A stretch of DNA of 47,914 nucleotides from Candidatus Doudnabacteria bacterium (GTDB lineage Bacteria > Patescibacteriota > Doudnabacteria > UBA920 > O2-02-FULL-48-8), in the NCBI GenBank assembly GCA_023246005.1, contig JAHFJG010000009.1:1-47914 (forward strand), in the 5' to 3' direction. The position numbers were made by a program, and so were the translations under genes. Positions within the stretch are counted from its first letter, which is position 1. Each line of letters starts with the position of its first letter. Under the pieces are notes generated by a model. That model ran no database searches and was not told the origin of the DNA. It worked only from the letters and a program-made list of their open reading frames with translations. Shown piece after piece: positions 12,423 through 46,434 of the stretch.

Positions 12423-12725
12423 CCCCCACACCAAACGAATTTAAAAGTCGATTGACTTCTTAATTCGTATTAATAGTTGTCTCCTGGCCCTTGCCCCAAG
12501 CTTGAGATTATGTTCTCTATGACGCGCATCTTGTTCTGAAGCGTAAGCTTCATAATAAACAAGTGTTAACGGTCTTCTATTTCTAGAAGATGGCACAAGT
12601 CCTGAATTATGTTTTTTATATCGTTCTATTAAATTCTTTGTAGATCCAATATATAACAGCTGATCCTTCAAACTTTTTAAGATATAAACGAAAAACATAA
12701 TTCAAAACTCGTTATGGTGTGAGGG
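12423..12725. mobile_element. GIY-YIG ORF-bearing element, TIR family 2
   Basis: Left CCCCCACACCA-AACGAATTT; right (rc) CCCTCACACCATAACGAGTTT; single ORF inside; left end 3 nt from the ftsH ATG. Confidence 0.6.
12441..12698 (-). CDS. GIY-YIG nuclease domain protein
   Basis: MFFVYILKSLKDQLLYIGSTKNLIERYKKHNSG...PLTLVYYEAYASEQDARHREHNLK. Confidence 0.92.
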   Translation of the reverse strand: MFFVYILKSLKDQLLYIGSTKNLIERYKKHNSGLVPSSRNRRPLTLVYYEAYASEQDARHREHNLKLGARARRQLLIRIKKSIDF

Positions 12726-12860: not shown

Positions 12861-13100
12861 TTATTTTAGCTTTTTTAAGAATTCTTTACCAGTTCCCGAT
12901 TTCAAATATTTCTCTCTTTGTCTGGCAGAAACTCGATCTGAAAACTCTTCTGTATATATTAATTTAAAAGGCCTATATGCACGCGTTGTTCTTTCTTTAC
13001 CTAGATTATGCTGGACAATCCTCTTTTCAACATTAAATGCTAAACCTACGTAAATATAATTTCTTATCAAACTACTGATCGCATAGACTGAACATTTCAT
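12861..13100 (-). CDS. GIY-YIG nuclease domain protein
   Basis: MKCSVYAISSLIRNYIYVGLAFNVEKRIVQHNLGKERTTRAYRPFKLIYTEEFSDRVSARQREKYLKSGTGKEFL. Confidence 0.9.
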   Translation of the reverse strand: MKCSVYAISSLIRNYIYVGLAFNVEKRIVQHNLGKERTTRAYRPFKLIYTEEFSDRVSARQREKYLKSGTGKEFLKKLK

Positions 13101-13881: not shown

Positions 13882-15222
13882 ATGTCAGAACAAGGAAAAG
13901 TGAAGTGGTTTCAGAATGGCTACGGCAGGGTCTCCCGCCCAGACGGCAGTGAAGCGTTCCTGCCTCCGCGAACGTTCGCGAGAGGTGAGGATATCATCGG
14001 GGGCGATGAGTTGGAGTTTGACGTTGAACCTGATCCGGATCCCGCAAGGCCCGGAAAGTTTCTAGCAAAAAATGTGAAGATCATAAACAAGGTCTCACGC
14101 CCAACTCCTAGTCCCATCCCAATACCTGCACCTGCAGCGTCGCCGTTGGCTAAGGAAGAACCCGAGGCAAAAGTGTCGTGGAGATTTGATCCGCCAAAAG
14201 TGCAAGAAGGACTGATGCTGGTGCGAACCTTCATCGCTTTCAAATTCAACAACGACCCAGTGCCAGGAATCGACGTCTCGCTTTTCAAAGTCGACAGTCA
14301 AGCTGAGGAAACTCAAGTTCTAACCCCGACCAAGAAGGCGACGACGAACGAAGAAGGCGAAGTTTACTTCGCTCTGTATCTGGAACCTAGCATTGCTGCG
14401 TGCGATCTGTTTGCCAAAGTTGAAGGGAAGAAATATCCTTTCTTCTGGAGCAAGCCGATCACTGCGAGCGGTGCTGATGCTTCCAATGTTTACGACCTGG
14501 AACTCACCTCCAAACCGGTTAGGCCTGACGGCAAGTTCATGGTTCGCGCCATCACACGCAAAAATGGGGTCGCTCAATCTGATTCTTTTCACTTTTGTCC
14601 AACGTGGGAATGCAAAGTCACTCCCATTCTCGGACACATGGTGGAAATCACGGAAGTCTTTGTCAGAGGAGCTTACACGAGAGTAACTGGCCAACAGATC
14701 AATCTCAACACTCCGGACGGTCAGCTGGTAATTCAAGCTGACCAGACCGGACCTGCTGAAATGCGGATCCAATGGCCGGAGCCATGCCTGGAAATGCACA
14801 CCTCGAATGATGGCGTCGCTGAATTCCTGGTTGAATTCGAAGGGGACAACATGCCTATCGAAGGCCGATACCATGATAAGATTGTCAGCCTTAACCTGGA
14901 AAGGTCGATCGATGATGGCAAAAACTGGACCATTGAAGTACACAACCCGCCGCGCGACCTAGATCCAATCACGGGAATGTTTTTCATCAGCGTGATCACC
15001 CGGAAAGACGGCAAGCAAGCTGATTGCAAGTTCGTGACTATTTCTGAACCTGTCCCTGTTGAAATCAAACAGATGACAGCCGCAGGACCGGTTGCGGTTA
15101 TTGATCTTGCGTCAAAGAGTCCAGGAATTTACCAGCTCTATGTCGAATTCACTGGTCTCTATGCCAAGGTTACATTTCAACTCAACGACGGCACCGAAGC
15201 CGTCGTTCATCTGCGAAAATAG
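13882..15222 (+). CDS. Protein with divergent N-terminal cold-shock-like domain, Pro/Ala-rich linker and repeated beta-rich (possibly Ig-like) region
   Basis: GKVKWFQNGYGRVSRPDGSEAFLPPRTFARGEDIIGGDELEFDVEPDPDPARPGKFLAKNVKII resembles a CSD; good RBS (GGGAGGTG). Confidence 0.8.
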   Translation: MSEQGKVKWFQNGYGRVSRPDGSEAFLPPRTFARGEDIIGGDELEFDVEPDPDPARPGKFLAKNVKIINKVSRPTPSPIPIPAPAASPLAKEEPEAKVSWRFDPPKVQEGLMLVRTFIAFKFNNDPVPGIDVSLFKVDSQAEETQVLTPTKKATTNEEGEVYFALYLEPSIAACDLFAKVEGKKYPFFWSKPITASGADASNVYDLELTSKPVRPDGKFMVRAITRKNGVAQSDSFHFCPTWECKVTPILGHMVEITEVFVRGAYTRVTGQQINLNTPDGQLVIQADQTGPAEMRIQWPEPCLEMHTSNDGVAEFLVEFEGDNMPIEGRYHDKIVSLNLERSIDDGKNWTIEVHNPPRDLDPITGMFFISVITRKDGKQADCKFVTISEPVPVEIKQMTAAGPVAVIDLASKSPGIYQLYVEFTGLYAKVTFQLNDGTEAVVHLRK

Positions 15223-15230
15223 AGGACATC

Positions 15231-16022
15231 ATGGATGCTTCCACCGAAGGAATAAGGACAATCAAACACTTCATATGGCACACGTTTGAGGAATTGCTGG
15301 AGTTCTTCACAGGGGTGACCATCGGAGCCGTCGGTCATTACTTCGTTAGTGATACCGGCGCCGACGGCAAGAAAAAATTCAGCATCAACCTAAGGAACTT
15401 CCGCCTCGACGCGCCGCACTTTGCCAAAACCGTGGAAGATGTGGCGGAGTTCAATGCGCTCTGTCTCAAACTCCAACCGGGGCAGATGAAACAGCTCGAA
15501 CCATGGATGGTAATCCTCGGCAATCATCAGCGTTCGCATATCGAGATCAATATCGCTGAAATGACTCGCCGACAGAATCTGTCGCCTGACGCAACCACGA
15601 ACAATACTCTGGCTCGACAAGAAGCCTTCACAGCACTGGAGCAATTGGCTAGAGTGGATGCTGCTACTGATCCGGCGAATCCGAATCAGCCTCATCCGGA
15701 TCCAGTGGAACGTTGGAGGGCCAGAAATGCTCACGCCGTGGCGTTCAAACTCATGAGAGCAAACGAGAACGACTACCCCGGCGCCCGCTGGCCAGCAGAA
15801 ATTGGACAAGTCTTGCACGAATTCTTAGTGGAGTTCCAAGCGGCGAAGATGACCTGGGATCAGTGGATGACGCAGCTGACTTCCACAATCGATGCGGATA
15901 CCAACCGTCTCGAACAGGCTCGCATCGCTCGCGAACAAGTTCGCGCGCAAGGTGGATTGCGCGGGGCATGGAACCGGTTCAATCAATCACGACGCCGCCT
16001 GTCGGCTTTTCCGTGGGAGTAG
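15231..16022 (+). CDS. Hypothetical protein (263 aa)
   Basis: Long ORF immediately downstream in the same operon; no family recognised. Confidence 0.8.
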   Translation: MDASTEGIRTIKHFIWHTFEELLEFFTGVTIGAVGHYFVSDTGADGKKKFSINLRNFRLDAPHFAKTVEDVAEFNALCLKLQPGQMKQLEPWMVILGNHQRSHIEINIAEMTRRQNLSPDATTNNTLARQEAFTALEQLARVDAATDPANPNQPHPDPVERWRARNAHAVAFKLMRANENDYPGARWPAEIGQVLHEFLVEFQAAKMTWDQWMTQLTSTIDADTNRLEQARIAREQVRAQGGLRGAWNRFNQSRRRLSAFPWE

Positions 16023-16052
16023 GTTTAAGCCTACTTCCACAGAGGTACAATC

Positions 16053-16901
16053 ATGGAAGAAACACTCGGAACAGCACGTTCTGCCACGGCTTGGGGTATG
16101 CAAGCTGGTCGCAATGCCCTGGAAGAGACTCGCAATGGTCTCTACGACGTGATCGTACCAATCTACATTCTCGGGCTAGTCCTGCCGATTCCCATCGGCT
16201 GGATCGGCGACTTCATCGGTTGGCTGATTTTGCTCGTACCGACCGTCGTCCGACGAGCCAACATTGCACAGGGTTCCTGGTATGGCGATGCACTGGGATG
16301 GGTTCTTGCCCATATGGAAAATCTAGCAGGATTTTTCTACCACTTGGGGCATATTCCCGCCGCACTCGCGTTCGTTCTCGTCGGTTACTATTATTGGCAG
16401 ATTGTCGGTCGCGGCGTGATTGCGGAAGGAGCCGTGCACGCACTGCCAAATTGGCTACAAAACATCGTAGCCAAATGGAGTGTGCTAGCCGGGGTTCTCG
16501 GCCGAGATTTCCGCATCATGGCAAGCATTGGCATGTGGGGATCGGTTCTGCTCTGGGTACCGCTCGAATTCCCAGTGTGGCGACACGTCTACCACTACTC
16601 CGGAGCACTGGCCTTGACCATGGCTCTGACGTACGTGGTGGCGACGAGCAAGCACTTCGACACGTTCTGGCGAAAATTCTACGGCGGAAATTTGGTCTGG
16701 ATCGCAGCCAGACACGCTCTGGGACTTATGGGGTACGAGCTCGTCTCCCTATGGGCATACGTAAGCTCGACTTCGTTCGACTTCAGTGACCTCGACTCGT
16801 TCGAGATCATGCTTCTCTTTGTGGGACTGGCGCTGGTAGTTGCAATTGTGCTTCCAGCGTTGAGCAAATCAACATCAACGTCAACATCACCAAGCCACTA
16901 A
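16053..16901 (+). CDS. Multi-pass membrane protein of unknown function (282 aa)
   Basis: Multiple TM segments (DVIVPIYILGLVLPIPIGWIGDFIGWLILLVP...); same operon. Confidence 0.8.
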   Translation: MEETLGTARSATAWGMQAGRNALEETRNGLYDVIVPIYILGLVLPIPIGWIGDFIGWLILLVPTVVRRANIAQGSWYGDALGWVLAHMENLAGFFYHLGHIPAALAFVLVGYYYWQIVGRGVIAEGAVHALPNWLQNIVAKWSVLAGVLGRDFRIMASIGMWGSVLLWVPLEFPVWRHVYHYSGALALTMALTYVVATSKHFDTFWRKFYGGNLVWIAARHALGLMGYELVSLWAYVSSTSFDFSDLDSFEIMLLFVGLALVVAIVLPALSKSTSTSTSPSH

Positions 16902-16914
16902 CAGGAGACCAAAA

Positions 16915-17772
16915 ATGCGAAAAACGATCATTCTATTAGTGGTCCTGGTCTGCGCTGGGTATGCAATTCGCACTTGGCACGTTGGCAATCGTGCGAGTTA
17001 CTATCGAGAGGAAGCGAAAGTCGACCACAAGATCGGGCAGATGCATGTTGGCAATACCGCCAAGCTCGAAGACGAGACGAATCCAAAACTCATGAAGCAA
17101 TGGGTCAAAGACGTCGACGTCGCGAGCTTCACGGGGGCAATCCTGCCATCGGCAACCAGGTCTGCCGGCTTGGACAATGCCAAGGATGCCTGGCTGTCTA
17201 GAGCGCAGCGCAAAATTCCGTTGAGGCGCGATCCGTACGTCACTGGCGCTCAGAACGCCTGGAAAACGTTCTTTCCGGCGCACGAAGACATCCTCGTAAC
17301 AGTCGGGAAAGATGATCAGATCTGTAATGGGGAACGGATCAACGAATGCTACCATGCTGATGGGCCATACACAGGTTTCAAGCCCAGCATCATGGATGAG
17401 AAAAAAACGGTGATGCAGGATCCGGATCCCAAGCATGGCGGCAACCCATCATCACCGCCGGGAAACTATCGGGCTCTGATAGCCCGAATCAGCCAACGAG
17501 GCGGACACACCGCGATTGTCGAAACGGGTTTCCAATTCGCAATTTGCGGTGCAAGCGCTGGGGCTGGCGACACAGAACTCTGGACAAATGGGGCCACTAT
17601 AATTGGCCCATCGCACAATGTCCAGGATTTCTGGGGCGGTAGCGGCGGCTACAGCTTCGAAGCAAAACCTGATCGGTTGGCAATGACGGCATGCTTGCTT
17701 CGACCAGGCCAGCCGATCGTGCCACTCGATTCGCTGGCAACGCTGTCAACAATGGCAGCAAACAATCAATAG
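16915..17772 (+). CDS. Signal peptide/anchor-bearing extracytoplasmic protein of unknown function (285 aa)
   Basis: MRKTIILLVVLVCAGYAIRTWHVG N-terminal hydrophobic segment; preceded by AGGAG RBS. Confidence 0.8.
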   Translation: MRKTIILLVVLVCAGYAIRTWHVGNRASYYREEAKVDHKIGQMHVGNTAKLEDETNPKLMKQWVKDVDVASFTGAILPSATRSAGLDNAKDAWLSRAQRKIPLRRDPYVTGAQNAWKTFFPAHEDILVTVGKDDQICNGERINECYHADGPYTGFKPSIMDEKKTVMQDPDPKHGGNPSSPPGNYRALIARISQRGGHTAIVETGFQFAICGASAGAGDTELWTNGATIIGPSHNVQDFWGGSGGYSFEAKPDRLAMTACLLRPGQPIVPLDSLATLSTMAANNQ

Positions 17773-17817
17773 GAGGGTATTGGAAAAACCGATTCAGGCT
17801 ATACGCCTAATCACATA

Positions 17818-17856
17818 CGGGTGTGCGAAGCTACCAAGCTTCCGCACCCGTTTTCT
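17818..17856 (+). terminator. Terminator of the four-gene operon
   Basis: CGGGTGTGCGAAGCTACCAAGCTTCCGCACCCGTTTTCTTTTT. Confidence 0.8.
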
Positions 17857-17861
17857 TTTTA

Positions 17862-18009
17862 CCCAGTATATCAACTTCGATAATGGTTTTTGAATTTGCT
17901 TTTGCCAAAAGTAGTAGTTATTAATTTTTATTTAACCCTAATCTATAGTTTTAAAATTTAACTAATCAAAAACCATTAAGGGCAAAAGCATCGAAGTTGT
18001 ATTACTGGG
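17862..18009. mobile_element. MITE-like element, TIR family 1, 148 bp
   Basis: CCCAGTATATCAACTTCGAT ... ATCGAAGTTGTATTACTGGG; flanks TTTA / TTTG. Confidence 0.75.
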
Positions 18010-18014
18010 TTTGC

Positions 18015-18365
18015 CTAAAAAATTATTGGTTTTCTATCAATAAAAATTGATTGTATAAATCTTTTTTTCAACTCTTGATCATCAGACCAAGTCACAATAA
18101 TCAGTCTGTTCCCAACATAAAAATAAAGTTCTTGCCATGACAATTTAGATTTTCTACCAAGCACTTTCTTCGATGATAATCTCGTTTCTATTTCCTGCAA
18201 GATAGTTAAATATAATTTTTCGGCACTGGCCTTATAATTTTGGATAATCAATGCCTCACTCCATACACCGCTGTCTTGGTATAATTCAAAAAAAGCCTCC
18301 TCATAATGGCGGATAAATCGCTGCAACTCAACCAAAGCCTGCTCGCTAAATTGCAAATCTATCAT
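18015..18365 (-). CDS. RelE/ParE-like toxin candidate
   Basis: MIDLQFSEQALVELQRFIRHYEEAFFELYQ...AEKLYLTILQEIETRLSS...YFYVGNRLIIVTWSDDQELKKRFIQSIFIDRK; start overlaps the upstream small ORF. Confidence 0.6.
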   Translation of the reverse strand: MIDLQFSEQALVELQRFIRHYEEAFFELYQDSGVWSEALIIQNYKASAEKLYLTILQEIETRLSSKKVLGRKSKLSWQELYFYVGNRLIIVTWSDDQELKKRFIQSIFIDRKPIIF

Positions 18366-18507
18366 GCTTCTGGGTTTTGAGCGGGACCTGTTTTTTCCAT
18401 TGAGACCGTAGGCGTGCGCGCAATCGCTGGGCTGAAAGTTCCAAGTACGTTTCCATTTCTGCTTTAATCTCATCTAAGGAATAGGTTGTTGTATTATTCT
18501 TCTTCAT
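18346..18507 (-). CDS. Putative cognate antitoxin (53 aa)
   Basis: MKKNNTTTYSLDEIKAEMETYLELSAQRLRARLRSQWKKQ; overlaps the toxin start. Confidence 0.55.
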   Translation of the reverse strand: MKKNNTTTYSLDEIKAEMETYLELSAQRLRARLRSQWKKQVPLKTQKHDRFAI

Positions 18508-18537
18508 ATAAATCAAGTATATCAAGACCAAAAACCA

Positions 18538-18566
18538 TTGACAAGATGGCTTTTTTGTGCTAATAT
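18538..18566 (+). promoter_or_regulatory. Sigma70-type promoter for the STN-domain gene
   Basis: TTGACA - 17 nt - TAATAT. Confidence 0.65.
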
Positions 18567-18639
18567 TGAGTGTTCTTTTTACAACGGCTCACTGTCTCAT
18601 TTCCGGCTCACAAAGCCGTGCCTGTAGGAGGGCACAACA

Positions 18640-19593
18640 ATGAAGCGTTTACTTTTCGCCGCACTGCTTGTGGTTCTCGTTTCGTCGTTCGCGTGGGCAC
18701 AAGACGGTCAAATCAGCCTGTCATTCGCCGACACGCCGGTCTACCAGATCGTCAACGCGATCGCCGCGGGCCAAGGCTACAAGCTCAAGCCTGCCGACAA
18801 CCTGCCTGGTGAGAAGGTCAGCATCAATATAGCTGACCAGACCATGGCGCAGGCACTAACGCAGTTGCTTAACCCGCGCGGTTTCGGCTTCCTGATCAAC
18901 TCCACTGATCACGTGATCGTGGTGTACAAGCAAGAAGGCGTGCCTAACGTTGCTAGTAGTATTGCGACTCCTTCACAACAGCCACGCACCGCAATTCAGG
19001 GCGCTCCTTGGGATTTGAGCGTAGCAGGATCATCATATGCGGCTGGAGTTCGAGGGTTCGATGCTCGGGCTTATGCCAGAGAGGCCATGGTAGCCGGAAC
19101 TTACTTGGAAGACCGAGCCTACCTTGAACAACGTCGATTTTCCGGCAGTGACTTGGCGTACTCTCCGGCGAGCTACGGTAGTTCTGGTTTCGGGCGGGTA
19201 TACGGCGGGTACTATGGTGGTAGCTATGGCTACGTCGATCCAGTGTATGGCGCGAGATTTCGAGGCGCGGCAACCACAGGATACATGAAGATCAACGCCA
19301 ACAAAGACACCCATTTTGCAAAGTACCTCCACGTACTACGCAAGGAGGGAAACAATTGGGTGTATGTGGGTGGGGGCGGCAAGTCGTTCCGCAGTTTCCA
19401 TGATCCGATGGAACTGCCAGTCGGACATCAGACCCTGCGATTCGAGCTACGGCGCGATGGCAAAACCCGCTACCTCACGGAGGAGTTTGATATCATGTCC
19501 AAATTCGACCGCCAACATGCGCTACAATACACGGTCGATGAAGATATGTTCAACTCCTTTGCAGATACAGAGGAGATTAAGCGCGAACAGTAA
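18640..19593 (+). CDS. Secreted protein with STN (secretin/TonB short N-terminal)-like domain
   Basis: Signal peptide MKRLLFAALLVVLVSSFAWAQ; ISLSFADTPVYQIVNAIAAGQGYKLKPADNLPGEKVSINIADQTMAQALTQLLNPRGFGFLINSTDHVIVVYK. Confidence 0.82.
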   Translation: MKRLLFAALLVVLVSSFAWAQDGQISLSFADTPVYQIVNAIAAGQGYKLKPADNLPGEKVSINIADQTMAQALTQLLNPRGFGFLINSTDHVIVVYKQEGVPNVASSIATPSQQPRTAIQGAPWDLSVAGSSYAAGVRGFDARAYAREAMVAGTYLEDRAYLEQRRFSGSDLAYSPASYGSSGFGRVYGGYYGGSYGYVDPVYGARFRGAATTGYMKINANKDTHFAKYLHVLRKEGNNWVYVGGGGKSFRSFHDPMELPVGHQTLRFELRRDGKTRYLTEEFDIMSKFDRQHALQYTVDEDMFNSFADTEEIKREQ

Positions 19594-24261: not shown

Positions 24262-25782
24262 CTACTCTACTTTCGGTCTGTATTGCAACGCTTCGGCTAA
24301 ATGATTAATGGCTATGTCTGGAATTCCTTCAAGATCAGCAATGGTCCTGGCTAACTTTAAAATCCGATGATAAGATCGAGCGGATAAATACATTTTTACC
24401 ACAGCAGTTTTCATAAAATTTTGCTCATCGCTGCCAAGCTGGCAAAATTCTTTAATCTCTTTAATGCCCATTTCAGAATTAGTTTTTATTCCTTTTAAAT
24501 TCGTAAATCTTTCGGTTTGAATGTCCCTGGCTTTCTGGACTCTAACCTGAATATTTTCTGAAGATTCTCCGGGTGATTCTGAAGATAATTTTTCATATTC
24601 CAAACGGCCGACCTCGACATGCAAATCAATGCGATCGAGCAATGGCCCTGAAATCTTTTTTTGATACTTCATGATTTGACCAGGAGTACAAATACAGCTT
24701 TTGGTTGGATCTGAATAATAGCCGCAGGGACAAGGGTTCTGAGCTGCAACCAAAGTAAACTGGGCTGGAAATGTGGCTGTGGAATGCACACGCGCAACTG
24801 TCACAATACCATCTTCCAAGGGCTGTCTTAGATTCTCAAGTACCGATCGGGAGAATTCCGGAAATTCATCCAAGAACAAAACACCTCGATGGGCCAGAGA
24901 AATTTCACCTGGTTTCGGGTTGCTTCCTCCCCCGACTAAAGCAATTCCAGAGGTTGTGTGGTGCGGACTCCGAAAAGGTCTGGCTGTAACTAAAGTTTTA
25001 TTTATGTTCAATAACCCTGCTACACTATAAACTTTCGTAATTTCTAAAACCTCATCTGCAGTCAGTTTAGGCAAAATTGAAGGCAAGGCTTTGGCGAGCA
25101 ATGTTTTGCCAGTGCCAGGAGGACCAGACAAAAGTAAATTATGTCCTCCAGAAGCTGCGATTTCAAGCGCGCGTTTGGCTGCCTCTTGGCCTTTGATCAG
25201 CTGCATATCAAAGACCGTTTCAGGCGTTTGTAAAATTCTATTCCAATCAGCAGATTCAACCATTTCAACTTTAATCAAGCCTTGTAAATAACCTATAACT
25301 TCATACAAACTTTTAACAGGGATAATTTCTATGCCAGTAACCAAGCTCGCTTCCTTGGTGTTGCCTTTGGGTATAAACACTTGTTTAAATCCCCGCTCCT
25401 TAGCCATGAGCAAAATTGACAAAACGCCAGAAACTGTCCTTAGATTTCCATCTAAGGCTAATTCTCCAACAAACAATTTATCTTTTGGTTCAAAAAATAT
25501 CTGACCGGAATTATGTAAAATAGATAACGCAATTGGCAAATCATAGTATGTCCCATTTTTAGGCAAGTCAGCAGGCGCTAGATTTACAGCAATGTGGGTG
25601 GGTGGAAAGATAGCACTGGAATTTCTGATTGCTGACTTGACTCGTTCTTTCGCTTCTTGGACAGCTGCGTCTGGCAAACCGACAATAATAGTTTTGGGCA
25701 AACCTCCTGAAATATCAACTTCGACCTCGATGAGTGCGGCATTCAAACCTATTAGAGACGCGGAATAAATTTTTGCGGGCAT
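24262..25782 (-). CDS. comM: YifB/ComM family Mg-chelatase-like ATPase; native start inferred at 25782 (MPAKIYSASLIGL)
   Basis: GGLPKTIIVGLPDAAVQEAKERVKSAI, GPPGTGKTLLAKALPSILP, FRSPHHTTS, RPGEISLAHRGVLFLDE-type motifs. Confidence 0.94.
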   Translation of the reverse strand: MPAKIYSASLIGLNAALIEVEVDISGGLPKTIIVGLPDAAVQEAKERVKSAIRNSSAIFPPTHIAVNLAPADLPKNGTYYDLPIALSILHNSGQIFFEPKDKLFVGELALDGNLRTVSGVLSILLMAKERGFKQVFIPKGNTKEASLVTGIEIIPVKSLYEVIGYLQGLIKVEMVESADWNRILQTPETVFDMQLIKGQEAAKRALEIAASGGHNLLLSGPPGTGKTLLAKALPSILPKLTADEVLEITKVYSVAGLLNINKTLVTARPFRSPHHTTSGIALVGGGSNPKPGEISLAHRGVLFLDEFPEFSRSVLENLRQPLEDGIVTVARVHSTATFPAQFTLVAAQNPCPCGYYSDPTKSCICTPGQIMKYQKKISGPLLDRIDLHVEVGRLEYEKLSSESPGESSENIQVRVQKARDIQTERFTNLKGIKTNSEMGIKEIKEFCQLGSDEQNFMKTAVVKMYLSARSYHRILKLARTIADLEGIPDIAINHLAEALQYRPKVE

Positions 25783-25783
25783 A

Positions 25784-26092
25784 CCCAGTATATCAACTTC
25801 CCGTGCCAAACGCCGATTGGCGTTGGTACTCTAATAATCTTAGTCCGGTAAATCTTCTGCCTTGGGTTGTTTTAAGATACTTCTCACGGCGTTTGGCATC
25901 TTTCTCTGATAAACAAGCTTCATAGTAAATAAGCTTAAAAGGCAGTCTAAACTTGGAGGAAAAGTTATAGCCATGCTCGTGTTCTTTTATTCGTCTAGTT
26001 AAATTGTTCGTATGCCCGATGTAGTTCTTACCGTCTGTTAAACTCTCAAGAATGTAGACATAAAAGAACACGTGGGAAGTTGTATTACTGGG
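25784..26092. mobile_element. GIY-YIG ORF-bearing element, TIR family 1, 309 bp, TSD CATA/CATA
   Basis: CCCAGTATATCAACTTCCC...GGGAAGTTGTATTACTGGG; flanked by CATA at 25780-25783 and 26093-26096. Confidence 0.8.
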
Positions 26093-27360: not shown

Positions 27361-27420
27361 AATTAAAAAGCCTTTCGACTTTATCCCCACACCAAAATTT
27401 TGGTGTGGGGATTTATCCAC
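27361..27420. repeat. ~60-bp direct repeat copy 1 with perfect palindrome CCCCACACCAAAATTTTGGTGTGGGG (27385-27410)
   Basis: Nearly identical to 28621-28680. Confidence 0.8.
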
Positions 27421-27463
27421 AAAAGAAAAAAGCCTCACCGCAAGAAACGGCAAAGCTAGTGAC

Positions 27464-28519
27464 TTATTGGCCCTCTGGCCAATAAAGAGGTACGCTTTCG
27501 GGCGCGTACAAATCCGTCAGGCTTTGATCGAGCACCGTGCGTTTGATCGCTTCGGCCAACAGGTGCGCCACGGTCAGAACCGTAAACTTGGAGATGTTGG
27601 CAACTTTGTCAGCCACGGGGACACTGTCAGTGATGACGACCCGATGAATCATCGAGTCAGCCAAGAGCTCCACCACGTACATCGGCTTTTGGCCGTTCTT
27701 GTTCAAAACCCCATGTACTACGGCAGAGACCACGAACGCGGCCCCGGCATGCATGAGCGCGTTGGTGTCGCCAATCATAGTCCCGGCTGAAAGTATTTCG
27801 TCGTCGACTGTCAGGCAGCACTTGCCCGACACATCTCCGATCACTCCGTGTACCTCCGATGTCCCGCTATCGTCGGGCCTGCCCTTGTCGATGTAGGCCA
27901 CTGGCAGCCTCAGCCACGTGGGAAAGGTGTGGAATCGTTTTGCGGCGCCACCATCGCCATTCACGAACACCCAGTCTCCGCCGGTCGGATCAATCACTTC
28001 TTTCCGCAACCAGTGGGCCAGCATTGGGCCGGCCGAAACTTCGTCTGCCGCTGGTTCGAAGTAGTGCTTGGTGTGAGTATCGTGAGGGTCAAGAAGCAGT
28101 ACTCTTTTGACTCCGAGAGAGTGAGAAATGATCTTCGCCAGTGTACAAGCCATGGTGGAAATGCGCGGCTTGTTCTTGCGATCTGAACGGGCATACGGAT
28201 AGCACGGGAAGACCAACAGGATGTCCTGGGGGCGAGCATTACGAATCGCGTCGAGCAAGGCAATCAGCTCGACGATGTGGTCGTTCACCGGCGGCACCAT
28301 GGTATGGATCACCACAACGAAGCAGCCGCGAACATTGCTCACTTGGACCTGTAAGTTGTCATTGTCGAACCGAGTCACGGTAACCGAACCATTCAGACCA
28401 TCCCCGGGGATGTTCTCTTTAGGAAGCCGAGCAGCAAGCGAGCCGCTGATCGCGTAGGCCAAGCTTTCTGAGCCGGTCGTCGCAAACAACTTCACCGGAT
28501 AGCTCATCTCTTTCTCCAA
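27464..28519 (-). CDS. prs: Ribose-phosphate pyrophosphokinase
   Basis: VFPCYPYARSDRKNKPRIS, VLLLDPHDTH, VNGDGGAAKR, VDDEILSAGTM (PRPP loop variant). Confidence 0.9.
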   Translation of the reverse strand: MEKEMSYPVKLFATTGSESLAYAISGSLAARLPKENIPGDGLNGSVTVTRFDNDNLQVQVSNVRGCFVVVIHTMVPPVNDHIVELIALLDAIRNARPQDILLVFPCYPYARSDRKNKPRISTMACTLAKIISHSLGVKRVLLLDPHDTHTKHYFEPAADEVSAGPMLAHWLRKEVIDPTGGDWVFVNGDGGAAKRFHTFPTWLRLPVAYIDKGRPDDSGTSEVHGVIGDVSGKCCLTVDDEILSAGTMIGDTNALMHAGAAFVVSAVVHGVLNKNGQKPMYVVELLADSMIHRVVITDSVPVADKVANISKFTVLTVAHLLAEAIKRTVLDQSLTDLYAPESVPLYWPEGQ

Positions 28520-28620: not shown

Positions 28621-28680
28621 AAACAAAAAAGCCTTTCGGCTTTATCTCCACACCAAATTTTGGTGTGGGGATTTATCCCC
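28621..28680. repeat. ~60-bp direct repeat copy 2 (palindrome 28646-28670)
   Basis: AAAAAAGCCTTTCGGCTTTATCTCCACACCAAATTTTGGTGTGGGGATTTATCC. Confidence 0.8.
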
Positions 28681-28702
28681 AATTGGTGCGCGCACTAGCT
28701 TG

Positions 28703-30332: not shown

Positions 30333-30789
30333 ACTTTTGTGAAAAAATAATCATTATTAAACCTATGATAATCATGACATCAGCGAGATTAAAAGTAAAC
30401 CCTAATCCTAGATCCAAAAAATCACGGACATACCCTAAATACAACCGATCGATAATATTTGAAATAGCGCCGGCTAAAATTAAAACAACCATGATCTTGC
30501 CGGTCCAAGATAAATCTTTCCGATGAGAAAAATAATAATAAATAAAAAATATTAATGCAGTCGCGATGATAATTAAATTTGCCGGTAATCCGAAATTGAA
30601 TGAAAATCCCAAACCGAAATTTCTGACCAGATGAATATGAATTAAACCAATAAAAAAATCACGAGGGCTAAAAATCAGCTTCGTGATTTGATCTAGAACC
30701 ACAAGAACAGAAATCAGATAACAGTTAACACAAATTTTTTGTTCCATGTTATCTGTTAACTGATCTATGACTTTGCGTGCTTGATACAT
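30310..30789 (-). CDS. lspA: Signal peptidase II
   Basis: VVLDQITKL, LVRNFGLGFSF, LAGAISNIIDRLYLGYVRDFLD, FNLADVMIIIG. Confidence 0.92.
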   Translation of the reverse strand: MYQARKVIDQLTDNMEQKICVNCYLISVLVVLDQITKLIFSPRDFFIGLIHIHLVRNFGLGFSFNFGLPANLIIIATALIFFIYYYFSHRKDLSWTGKIMVVLILAGAISNIIDRLYLGYVRDFLDLGLGFTFNLADVMIIIGLIMIIFSQKYEANLGD

Positions 30790-31121
30790 GCTTCCGCCGC
30801 AGGTTCTGCTCGAAGTCTGGCTTCCTCAATTTCCTCTCCGCCAATTAGACACTTGCCATAGGTGCTGTCTTCAATTCTTTTTAAAGCCGCTTCAACTTTA
30901 GTCAGACGCATTTCTAGATCTTCTATTACAGAAAGATCATTGCCGAACTGTTCCGACTCAAAAGCATTTTCGCCTTCTTCAGATCCGACTTCGTCAAATT
31001 TTGGTTTGTGTCCGCCCGGGATTTCGGAATCAAGATTTGTATCACGCTTAAGAATCGAATTGAGTTTTTTCTGTTCAGCCACAAGCTTGGTCTTGTTTTC
31101 TTCGATGAGTTGTTTATTCAT
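30765..31121 (-). CDS. DksA/TraR-like protein with degenerate zinc finger
   Basis: Coiled coil then TYGKCLIGGEEIEEARLRAEPAAEACIKHAKS. Confidence 0.82.
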   Translation of the reverse strand: MNKQLIEENKTKLVAEQKKLNSILKRDTNLDSEIPGGHKPKFDEVGSEEGENAFESEQFGNDLSVIEDLEMRLTKVEAALKRIEDSTYGKCLIGGEEIEEARLRAEPAAEACIKHAKS

Positions 31122-31223
31122 CCCGTTAGAAATTGTGCTTAGTTAATAATAAATATTAATTGCAATTTGTCCCGCAGAATCTTATTTTAAAGATAATTAT
31201 GCTACTCAATATTTCTAACGGGA
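31121..31223. mobile_element. MITE-like element A, TIR family 3 (TCCCGTTAGAAAT...ATTTCTAACGGGA), TTCA flanks
   Basis: Inverted termini, TTCA at 31117-31120 and 31224-31227. Confidence 0.6.
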
Positions 31224-31261
31224 TTCATAGATCAAGTATACACGAATTTGGATAACAAAAA

Positions 31262-31420: not shown

Positions 31421-31716
31421 CTCCGCTCGCACGCTTGCGCGTAAAGCAGAGGTCAACATTCGTATGTAGAAACCGAAAAGGAACAACTTATATATCTAAC
31501 CAATCTATAAGAGAAGTTCTTCACTGTTCTTGTGGTGCGAACACCATAACAATTTTTGTTTTATGTTTGTTTTATTTTTATACAAACGATTTTTATTTTT
31601 GTTTTACAAGCAGCTGGGTTAGAACAGCTATGACGAATAGTGGAGAACGTCAAAGTCTCAAATTTTAAGGCCTTGGCTTTCTCCGCTTTTCGAAAATATT
31701 CAATTTTCAAGGTTCA

Positions 31717-31814
31717 TCCCGTTTAGAAATTACATTTCTGTTTTCTAAATCAATTAATCTATCCAAATTGGCTTATTTTGAAGATAAACTGAGTTACTAA
31801 AATTTCTAACGGGA
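31717..31814. mobile_element. MITE-like element B, TIR family 3, TTCA flanks
   Basis: TCCCGTTTAGAAAT...ATTTCTAACGGGA; inner CTTATTTTGAAGATAA shared with element A; TTCA at 31713-31716 and 31815-31818. Confidence 0.6.
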
Positions 31815-31968
31815 TTCAATATGACTATTCTAGCAGATTTTTTAAGCCTTGTCAATAATTTGTACTGCAAACTTAAAAAATTGCGAATTTATTAAGCATT
31901 TTTGAATTTTAAAACCGGCTTCAGATGATTTATACACATCTAAAACCGACAAAAACTAAAAAATTTAT

Positions 31969-46294: not shown

Positions 46295-46434
46295 CCCAGT
46301 AATACAACTTCGATGCTTTTGCCTTAAATGGCTACTAATTACCAAAAAAAATAAAAGATTAGCTTAAATCTATTAGTAATATTTTATTTTTTTGCAAAAG
46401 CAATTAAGCCATTTATCGAAGTTGATATACTGGG
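46295..46434. mobile_element. MITE-like element, TIR family 1, 140 bp, TSD TCAA/TCAA
   Basis: CCCAGTAATACAACTTCGAT...ATCGAAGTTGATATACTGGG; opposite orientation to 17862-18009. Confidence 0.8.

Follow-up and report, generated by a model that had tools for sequence, protein, structure and literature searches.

The window analysed here, the whole 47,914-nucleotide stretch of a Candidatus Doudnabacteria contig, contains a 148-bp sequence, copy 1, which, judging from sequence comparison, is a dispersed, non-autonomous insertion, itself bordered by an imperfect target duplication. It is probably a MITE whose movement depends in trans on a GIY-YIG mini-transposon, a copy of which lies in the same window (Table 1). 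An earlier note had described copy 1 as an ORF-less relative of that GIY-YIG element: the same asymmetric ends are now found in 49 elements, 42 of them ORF-less, in agreement with this description.

Table 1. Localization of the described features within the window
Feature	Position	Strand	Remarks
ORF-less non-autonomous element, copy 1	17862-18009	+	148 bp
Copy 1, TATC end CCCAGTATATCAACTTCGAT	17862-17881	+	stem 17862-17868, TAT bulge 17869-17871, stem 17872-17881
Copy 1, ATAC end ATCGAAGTTGTATTACTGGG	17990-18009	+	stem 17990-17999, TAT bulge 18000-18002, stem 18003-18009
Inner block 1 TAATGGTTTTTGA	17881-17893	+	exact complement of 17966-17978
Inner block 1 partner	17966-17978	+	pairs with TAATGGTTTTTGA
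Inner block 2 GCTTTTGCC	17898-17906	+	exact complement of 17981-17989; crosses block 1
Inner block 2 partner	17981-17989	+	pairs with GCTTTTGCC
Copy 1, left flank TTTA	17858-17861	.	imperfect target duplication
Copy 1, right flank TTTG	18010-18013	.	imperfect target duplication
GIY-YIG element, same ends as copy 1	25784-26092	-	309 bp; identical second copy G000:C30:31540-31848
GIY-YIG ORF, 100 aa	25793-26095	-	PF01541, 5.4e-16
Host gene comM/yifB (Mg-chelatase-like)	24262-25782	-	start codon restored by duplicated TATG; comM by Pfam
ORF-less copy 2	46295-46434	-	140 bp; TCAA target duplication on both sides (a TTGAC -35 box)

Ends and folding of copy 1

Copy 1 has the features of a MITE: it is 148 bp long, contains no ORF and ends in imperfect inverted repeats of 20 nt. 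Read directly, the termini are CCCAGTA-TAT-CAACTTCGAT and ATCGAAGTTG-TAT-TACTGGG, complementary to each other save for the three central bases, where each end has TAT on one and the same strand; in a folded strand this leaves a TAT/TAT internal bulge between stems of 7 and 10 bp. At each end 17 bp are in common with the GIY-YIG element. The direct reading also confirms two points of the earlier note, namely the asymmetry of the ends (TATC on one side, ATAC on the other, as in the GIY-YIG element) and the TTTA and TTTG flanks, which match at 3 out of 4 positions. The 20-nt end finds no chance match in the shuffled window, against five real ones: the two termini of copy 1, those of copy 2 and a single terminus of the GIY-YIG element.

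The strand of copy 1 is predicted to fold with an energy of -43.2 kcal/mol as RNA (z -5.95 relative to shuffles) and of -30.3 as DNA (z -7.17). A chance palindrome was rejected, since the fold lies far beyond the shuffles and the 20-nt end is absent from the shuffled window. The two subterminal blocks already noticed in swapped order are present as described, and both have exact complements. Because of this order the two inner helices cross and cannot extend the end stem together, while either of them, alone, is able to lengthen it. The previous suggestion that the whole 148 bp can fold on itself holds, therefore, as far as a fold much better than shuffles is concerned, but not for both inner helices at once. 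A separate terminator-like hairpin is found just left of copy 1, at about 17818-17858; identification of copy 1 itself as an intrinsic terminator was rejected, as this distinct hairpin adjoins it and the family is dispersed.

Pairing is conserved among related copies. When 37 MITEs are aligned, 94.2% of cells pair, and 16 out of 38 pairs are changed on both sides (6.8 in shuffled alignments; none of 500 shuffles reaches 16, although related sequences may beat shuffles even without a structure). Sliding the partners by 1-3 columns cuts pairing to 31-48%. Paired variants include CCCC/GGGG, AACGTC/GACGTT, AACATC/GATGTT and AACTGC/GCAGTT. The inner helices were counted explicitly, as they cross and are therefore omitted by RNAalifold: changes on both sides occur, in the 37 copies, at 8 out of 11 pairs of the block 1 helix (helix 3) and at 4 out of 10 pairs of the block 2 helix (helix 4). 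TAT/TAT, in turn, is retained, and stays unpaired, in 36 out of 37 MITEs. Covariation of the MITE arms as base pairs, while the bulge remains unpaired, suggests that the folded strand is probably what is recognised. Palindrome correction could also yield covariation within an element, yet it should erase the TAT/TAT bulge; the persistence of the bulge, and the recurrence of the changes in different genomes, argue against a simple correction of this kind.

The GIY-YIG element and the family sharing its ends

In the source genome (673 kb, 43 contigs) these ends delimit nine elements or more. Two are the identical 309-bp GIY-YIG copies; seven others, of 140-149 bp, contain no ORF and are well diverged internally. 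A further related copy, a BLAST match at G000:C25:3193-3341, falls outside the extracted set. Within the family, 12 out of 14 genomes show the end pattern, the genomes compared being, as it seems, largely metagenome assemblies. Complete elements could be extracted in 49 cases: 42 are ORF-less and 7 carry the GIY-YIG gene, one of the latter as a 207-bp deletion form. A longer pattern, of 20 nt, gave only two more matches when another 36 genomes from the order were searched. The genome-wide search for the end pair, proposed in the earlier note, thus revealed a dispersed family, with different genes around the elements.

The ends of the GIY-YIG element form part of its coding frame. The ORF found in the window has its start codon in the flanking CATA, at the start of the host comM gene; its N-terminus, MPSNTTS, derives from the ATAC end, and its TGA stop is formed by the TATC end. 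The same arrangement is found in 7 out of 7 copies: the ORF starts at an ATG from the host flank, continues across the ATAC end as M-PSNTT, and terminates at a TGA made by the TATC end, directly followed by the duplicated ATG of the host gene. The seven copies occupy seven different host gene starts; the genes behind the other copies, as read from their N-termini, are presumably those for L15, RNase Y, PstB and asparagine synthase, among others.

The encoded protein consists of a single GIY-YIG domain, the nearest solved structure being UPF0213 protein BH0048 (1zg2), and its gene, as indicated by a dN/dS of 0.10-0.15 (pairs with measurable dS), is under purifying selection. GIY-YIG homing endonucleases of the group I intron type (TIGR01453) have the same catalytic domain, but the protein scores 22.6 bits, below the cut-off of 56.05, and the elements differ from such systems in their many unrelated target genes, in their target duplications and in the absence of an intron. 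The seven different host gene starts, too, speak against a homing endonuclease of this type.

Inside these ends, when the 14 family genomes are searched by ends, either GIY-YIG or nothing is found; no element with these ends exceeds 459 bp, and around solo ends no distant partner is found up to about 1.5 kb away. Other GIY-YIG genes of Patescibacteria lie in different terminal repeats (CCCCGTAGTAGAATTT, TCCCGTTAGAGAC, CCCCCGCACCAAT, CCAGGTAGTAG), with duplications of 3-5 bp, many on start codons. The best flanking inverted repeat reaches a score of at least 12 in 44 out of 76 GIY-YIG loci (with mismatched flanks, the 95th percentile is 11 and the 99th is 13), in a sample picked by GIY-YIG similarity, which is therefore not unbiased and is compatible with other enzymes in such frames. 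In two other genomes (L126, L137) GIY-YIG elements are located at the 5' end of a putative tRNA-Ser gene, whose start is restored by the duplication.

The window contains further features. An ORF-less element with other ends (TCCCGTTAGAAATT...AATATTTCTAACGGGA, 31120-31224) is flanked by TTCA on both sides and lies on the start codon of ORF 30765-31121(-); a second one (31716-31815) has ends TCCCGTTTAG/CTAACGGGA, again with TTCA on both sides. In the whole genome the core motif CCCGTTAGARAY is found 16 times. A GIY-YIG gene of 85 aa (12441-12698), with ACCCCCACACCAAACGAA-like ends, adjoins a tRNA-like sequence, and a further GIY-YIG domain is found at 12885-13094. Two direct copies of the palindrome TTTATCCCCACACCAAAATTTTGGTGTGGGGATTT (27380-27422 and 28640-28682) bracket ORF 27464-28519(-).

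Insertion and landing sites

Exact 4-bp direct repeats flank 34 out of 49 elements (mean 5.5 and maximum 15 in 2000 trials of shuffled flank pairing); when exact repeats of 3-5 bp are considered, the number rises to 44 out of 49 (mean 10.9 and maximum 20 after shuffling). The five elements lacking an exact repeat include copy 1. The duplications include TG/CA in 40 out of 49 cases, against a background of 36%.

Comparison with empty sites, also advised in the earlier note, gave a clean result for a related MITE. In genome G006 (L159), a 146-bp MITE with slightly diverged ends is inserted within a GIY-YIG ORF (ACCCAAG|CCCAG...CTGGG|CAAGG); five homologs of this ORF read through without insert, revealing a clean 4-bp CAAG duplication. 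The 146+4 bp leave the reading frame open across the whole insert. The other 11 genomes parsed have an uninterrupted comM start, and several of them the same kind of terminator upstream, while in the source genome the GIY-YIG element stands between terminator and restored start codon. For copy 1 no empty site was found, as the flanks have no relatives in the family: in its 1.7-kb neighbourhood essentially only the 148 bp match other genomes of the 14-genome set, along with two stretches shorter than 40 bp near 18.53-18.57 kb. The matches start and stop at the element, and a conserved regulatory RNA bound to this locus, which the earlier note had named as the alternative to a dispersed insertion, is thereby ruled out. 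Around copy 1, the region 13900-19500 has about 50-55% GC, against about 38% in its surroundings, and contains ORFs without Pfam hits along with a weak STN/secretin-like protein; these features, and the lack of family relatives for the copy 1 flanks, indicate that the block may be an acquired island.

Elements tend to be located exactly on start codons or on the -35 boxes of promoters. By a loose rule, which asks for an ATG within the duplication that starts an ORF of 50 aa or more, 7 out of 7 GIY-YIG copies and 21 out of 42 MITEs are positive, against 3.8% of random points; for copy 2, one of the 21, the match is probably due to chance, since this copy lies on a -35 box. By a strict gene-start rule, 16 out of 42 MITEs are positive, against 1.4% of intergenic positions. 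The MITEs placed exactly on a host start codon number 16-20 out of 42, and the TATC end points toward the gene in every start-codon case. In nine further MITEs the junction contains TTGAC, followed in each case after 16-18 nt by a hexamer resembling a -10 box (4/6 or better); such a hexamer accompanies 40 out of 228 background TTGAC sites. Copy 1 falls in neither class: it is found after a terminator T-run, between convergent genes, at a border without start codon or promoter. Targeting and selection probably both contribute to placement.

Proposed mechanism and alternative readings

According to the model favoured here, the autonomous form would be a mini-transposon of 309-315 bp, encoding only a GIY-YIG nuclease of 92-102 residues. 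When an element becomes single-stranded or extruded, its ends would fold into a 7 bp stem, the TAT/TAT bulge and a stem of about 10 bp. The GIY-YIG protein, expressed from its own element, would act in trans on MITEs, recognising the fold and cutting at the CCC/GGG borders; the target would be cut with a stagger of ~4 nt, usually at a site containing TG/CA, and the element joined in, host gap repair then generating a target duplication of 3-5 bp, mostly 4. Insertions are indeed found mainly where the duplication spares a host signal, either a start codon, with the TATC end toward the gene, or a -35 box. At start codons the nuclease would be expressed from the host translation start, and the duplication would give the host gene its start back. 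We infer from the sequences the cutting role of the GIY-YIG protein, the folded single strand as its substrate and the manner of strand joining. DNA hydrolysis by GIY-YIG enzymes involves no covalent intermediate, so that strand joining would need a host step. A point against the simple model comes from two genomes, G011 and G012 (98-100% complete), which hold 6 and 11 complete MITEs: neither contains a GIY-YIG element with these ends or a close GIY-YIG partner, the best having about 50% identity. For a broader proposal, the chances appear evenly balanced: a transposon class, active across Patescibacteria, in which a single-domain GIY-YIG nuclease of ~95 residues would be the only element-encoded transposition protein, recognising bulged-hairpin ends, producing 4-bp duplications, inserting at start codons and mobilising hairpin MITEs.

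The MITEs of G011 and G012, lacking a matching GIY-YIG element, would fit a separate transposase, encoded elsewhere or lost, moving both GIY-YIG elements and MITEs, with the GIY-YIG gene as cargo; DDE transposases ordinarily give 4-bp duplications. This explanation is rather unlikely, given the 459-bp upper size found by the search by ends in 14 genomes, the enclosure of GIY-YIG genes by several unrelated end families as well, and the coding frame built into the element ends. Another possibility, which we consider improbable, is that the 148 bp serve at promoters and start codons, as a structured RNA or as regulatory DNA, and are retained for this function, with mobility old and incidental. 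Variation conserving pairing in all four helices, the preference for start codons and -35 boxes, and the internal divergence of the source-genome copies speak in favour of such a function. Rfam, however, gave only sub-threshold noise and no family; the copy 1 flanks are not conserved, its site between convergent genes offers neither start codon nor promoter, and target duplications for each copy, with a MITE within a GIY-YIG ORF, speak of insertion.

Hairpin ends, a conserved unpaired position and left/right asymmetry are also features of single-strand elements of the IS200/IS605 type (REP/RAYT, with a Y1 tyrosine transposase), a resemblance only. Target duplications are not expected from the IS200/IS605 pathway, yet 3-5 bp duplications are found at 44 out of 49 junction pairs, and the only protein encoded within the elements is GIY-YIG, not Y1: this identity, REPIN/RAYT included, was rejected and is extremely improbable. 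REPIN/RAYT systems are similar in having palindromic, hairpin-forming, non-autonomous repeats mobilised in trans, but they rely on another enzyme class, and duplications characterize the present family.

With prokaryotic MITEs, such as the Correia elements of Neisseria, the ORF-less elements described here have in common a short length, the absence of an ORF, terminal inverted repeats, target duplications and a dispersed, intergenic localization. Known MITEs, in contrast, are usually tied to classical transposases, while the sole coding partner here is a GIY-YIG nuclease; a further difference is that insertions of this family fall on start codons and -35 boxes. The Ssn GIY-YIG single-strand nucleases of Neisseria, together with NTS repeats, reportedly modulate transformation: they too combine a small GIY-YIG protein with a hairpin-forming repeat, but are not said to form a transposon with target duplications and MITEs. 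A review of prokaryotic MITEs mentions neither GIY-YIG nor start codons (PMC10969869). GIY-YIG-encoding insertions of CPR bacteria have been reported for rRNA genes, in a text where inverted repeats or palindromes are not mentioned (PMC11270868). No description of a GIY-YIG transposon or of Patescibacteria MITEs was found in the literature, whose coverage was incomplete, so that this is weak evidence of novelty.

The host of copy 1 is a groundwater bacterium with a tiny genome. If the GIY-YIG protein mobilises these elements, this nuclease superfamily would carry out transposition in a way that is new for bacteria within the literature searched, and the elements, at ~280-320 bp, would rank with the smallest autonomous DNA transposons. 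The model, if true, would also explain why the very small genomes of Patescibacteria contain many small GIY-YIG genes and the palindromes that match them. The exact positioning of insertions on start codons and -35 boxes poses a puzzle on target choice and on the tolerance of streamlined genomes to insertion.
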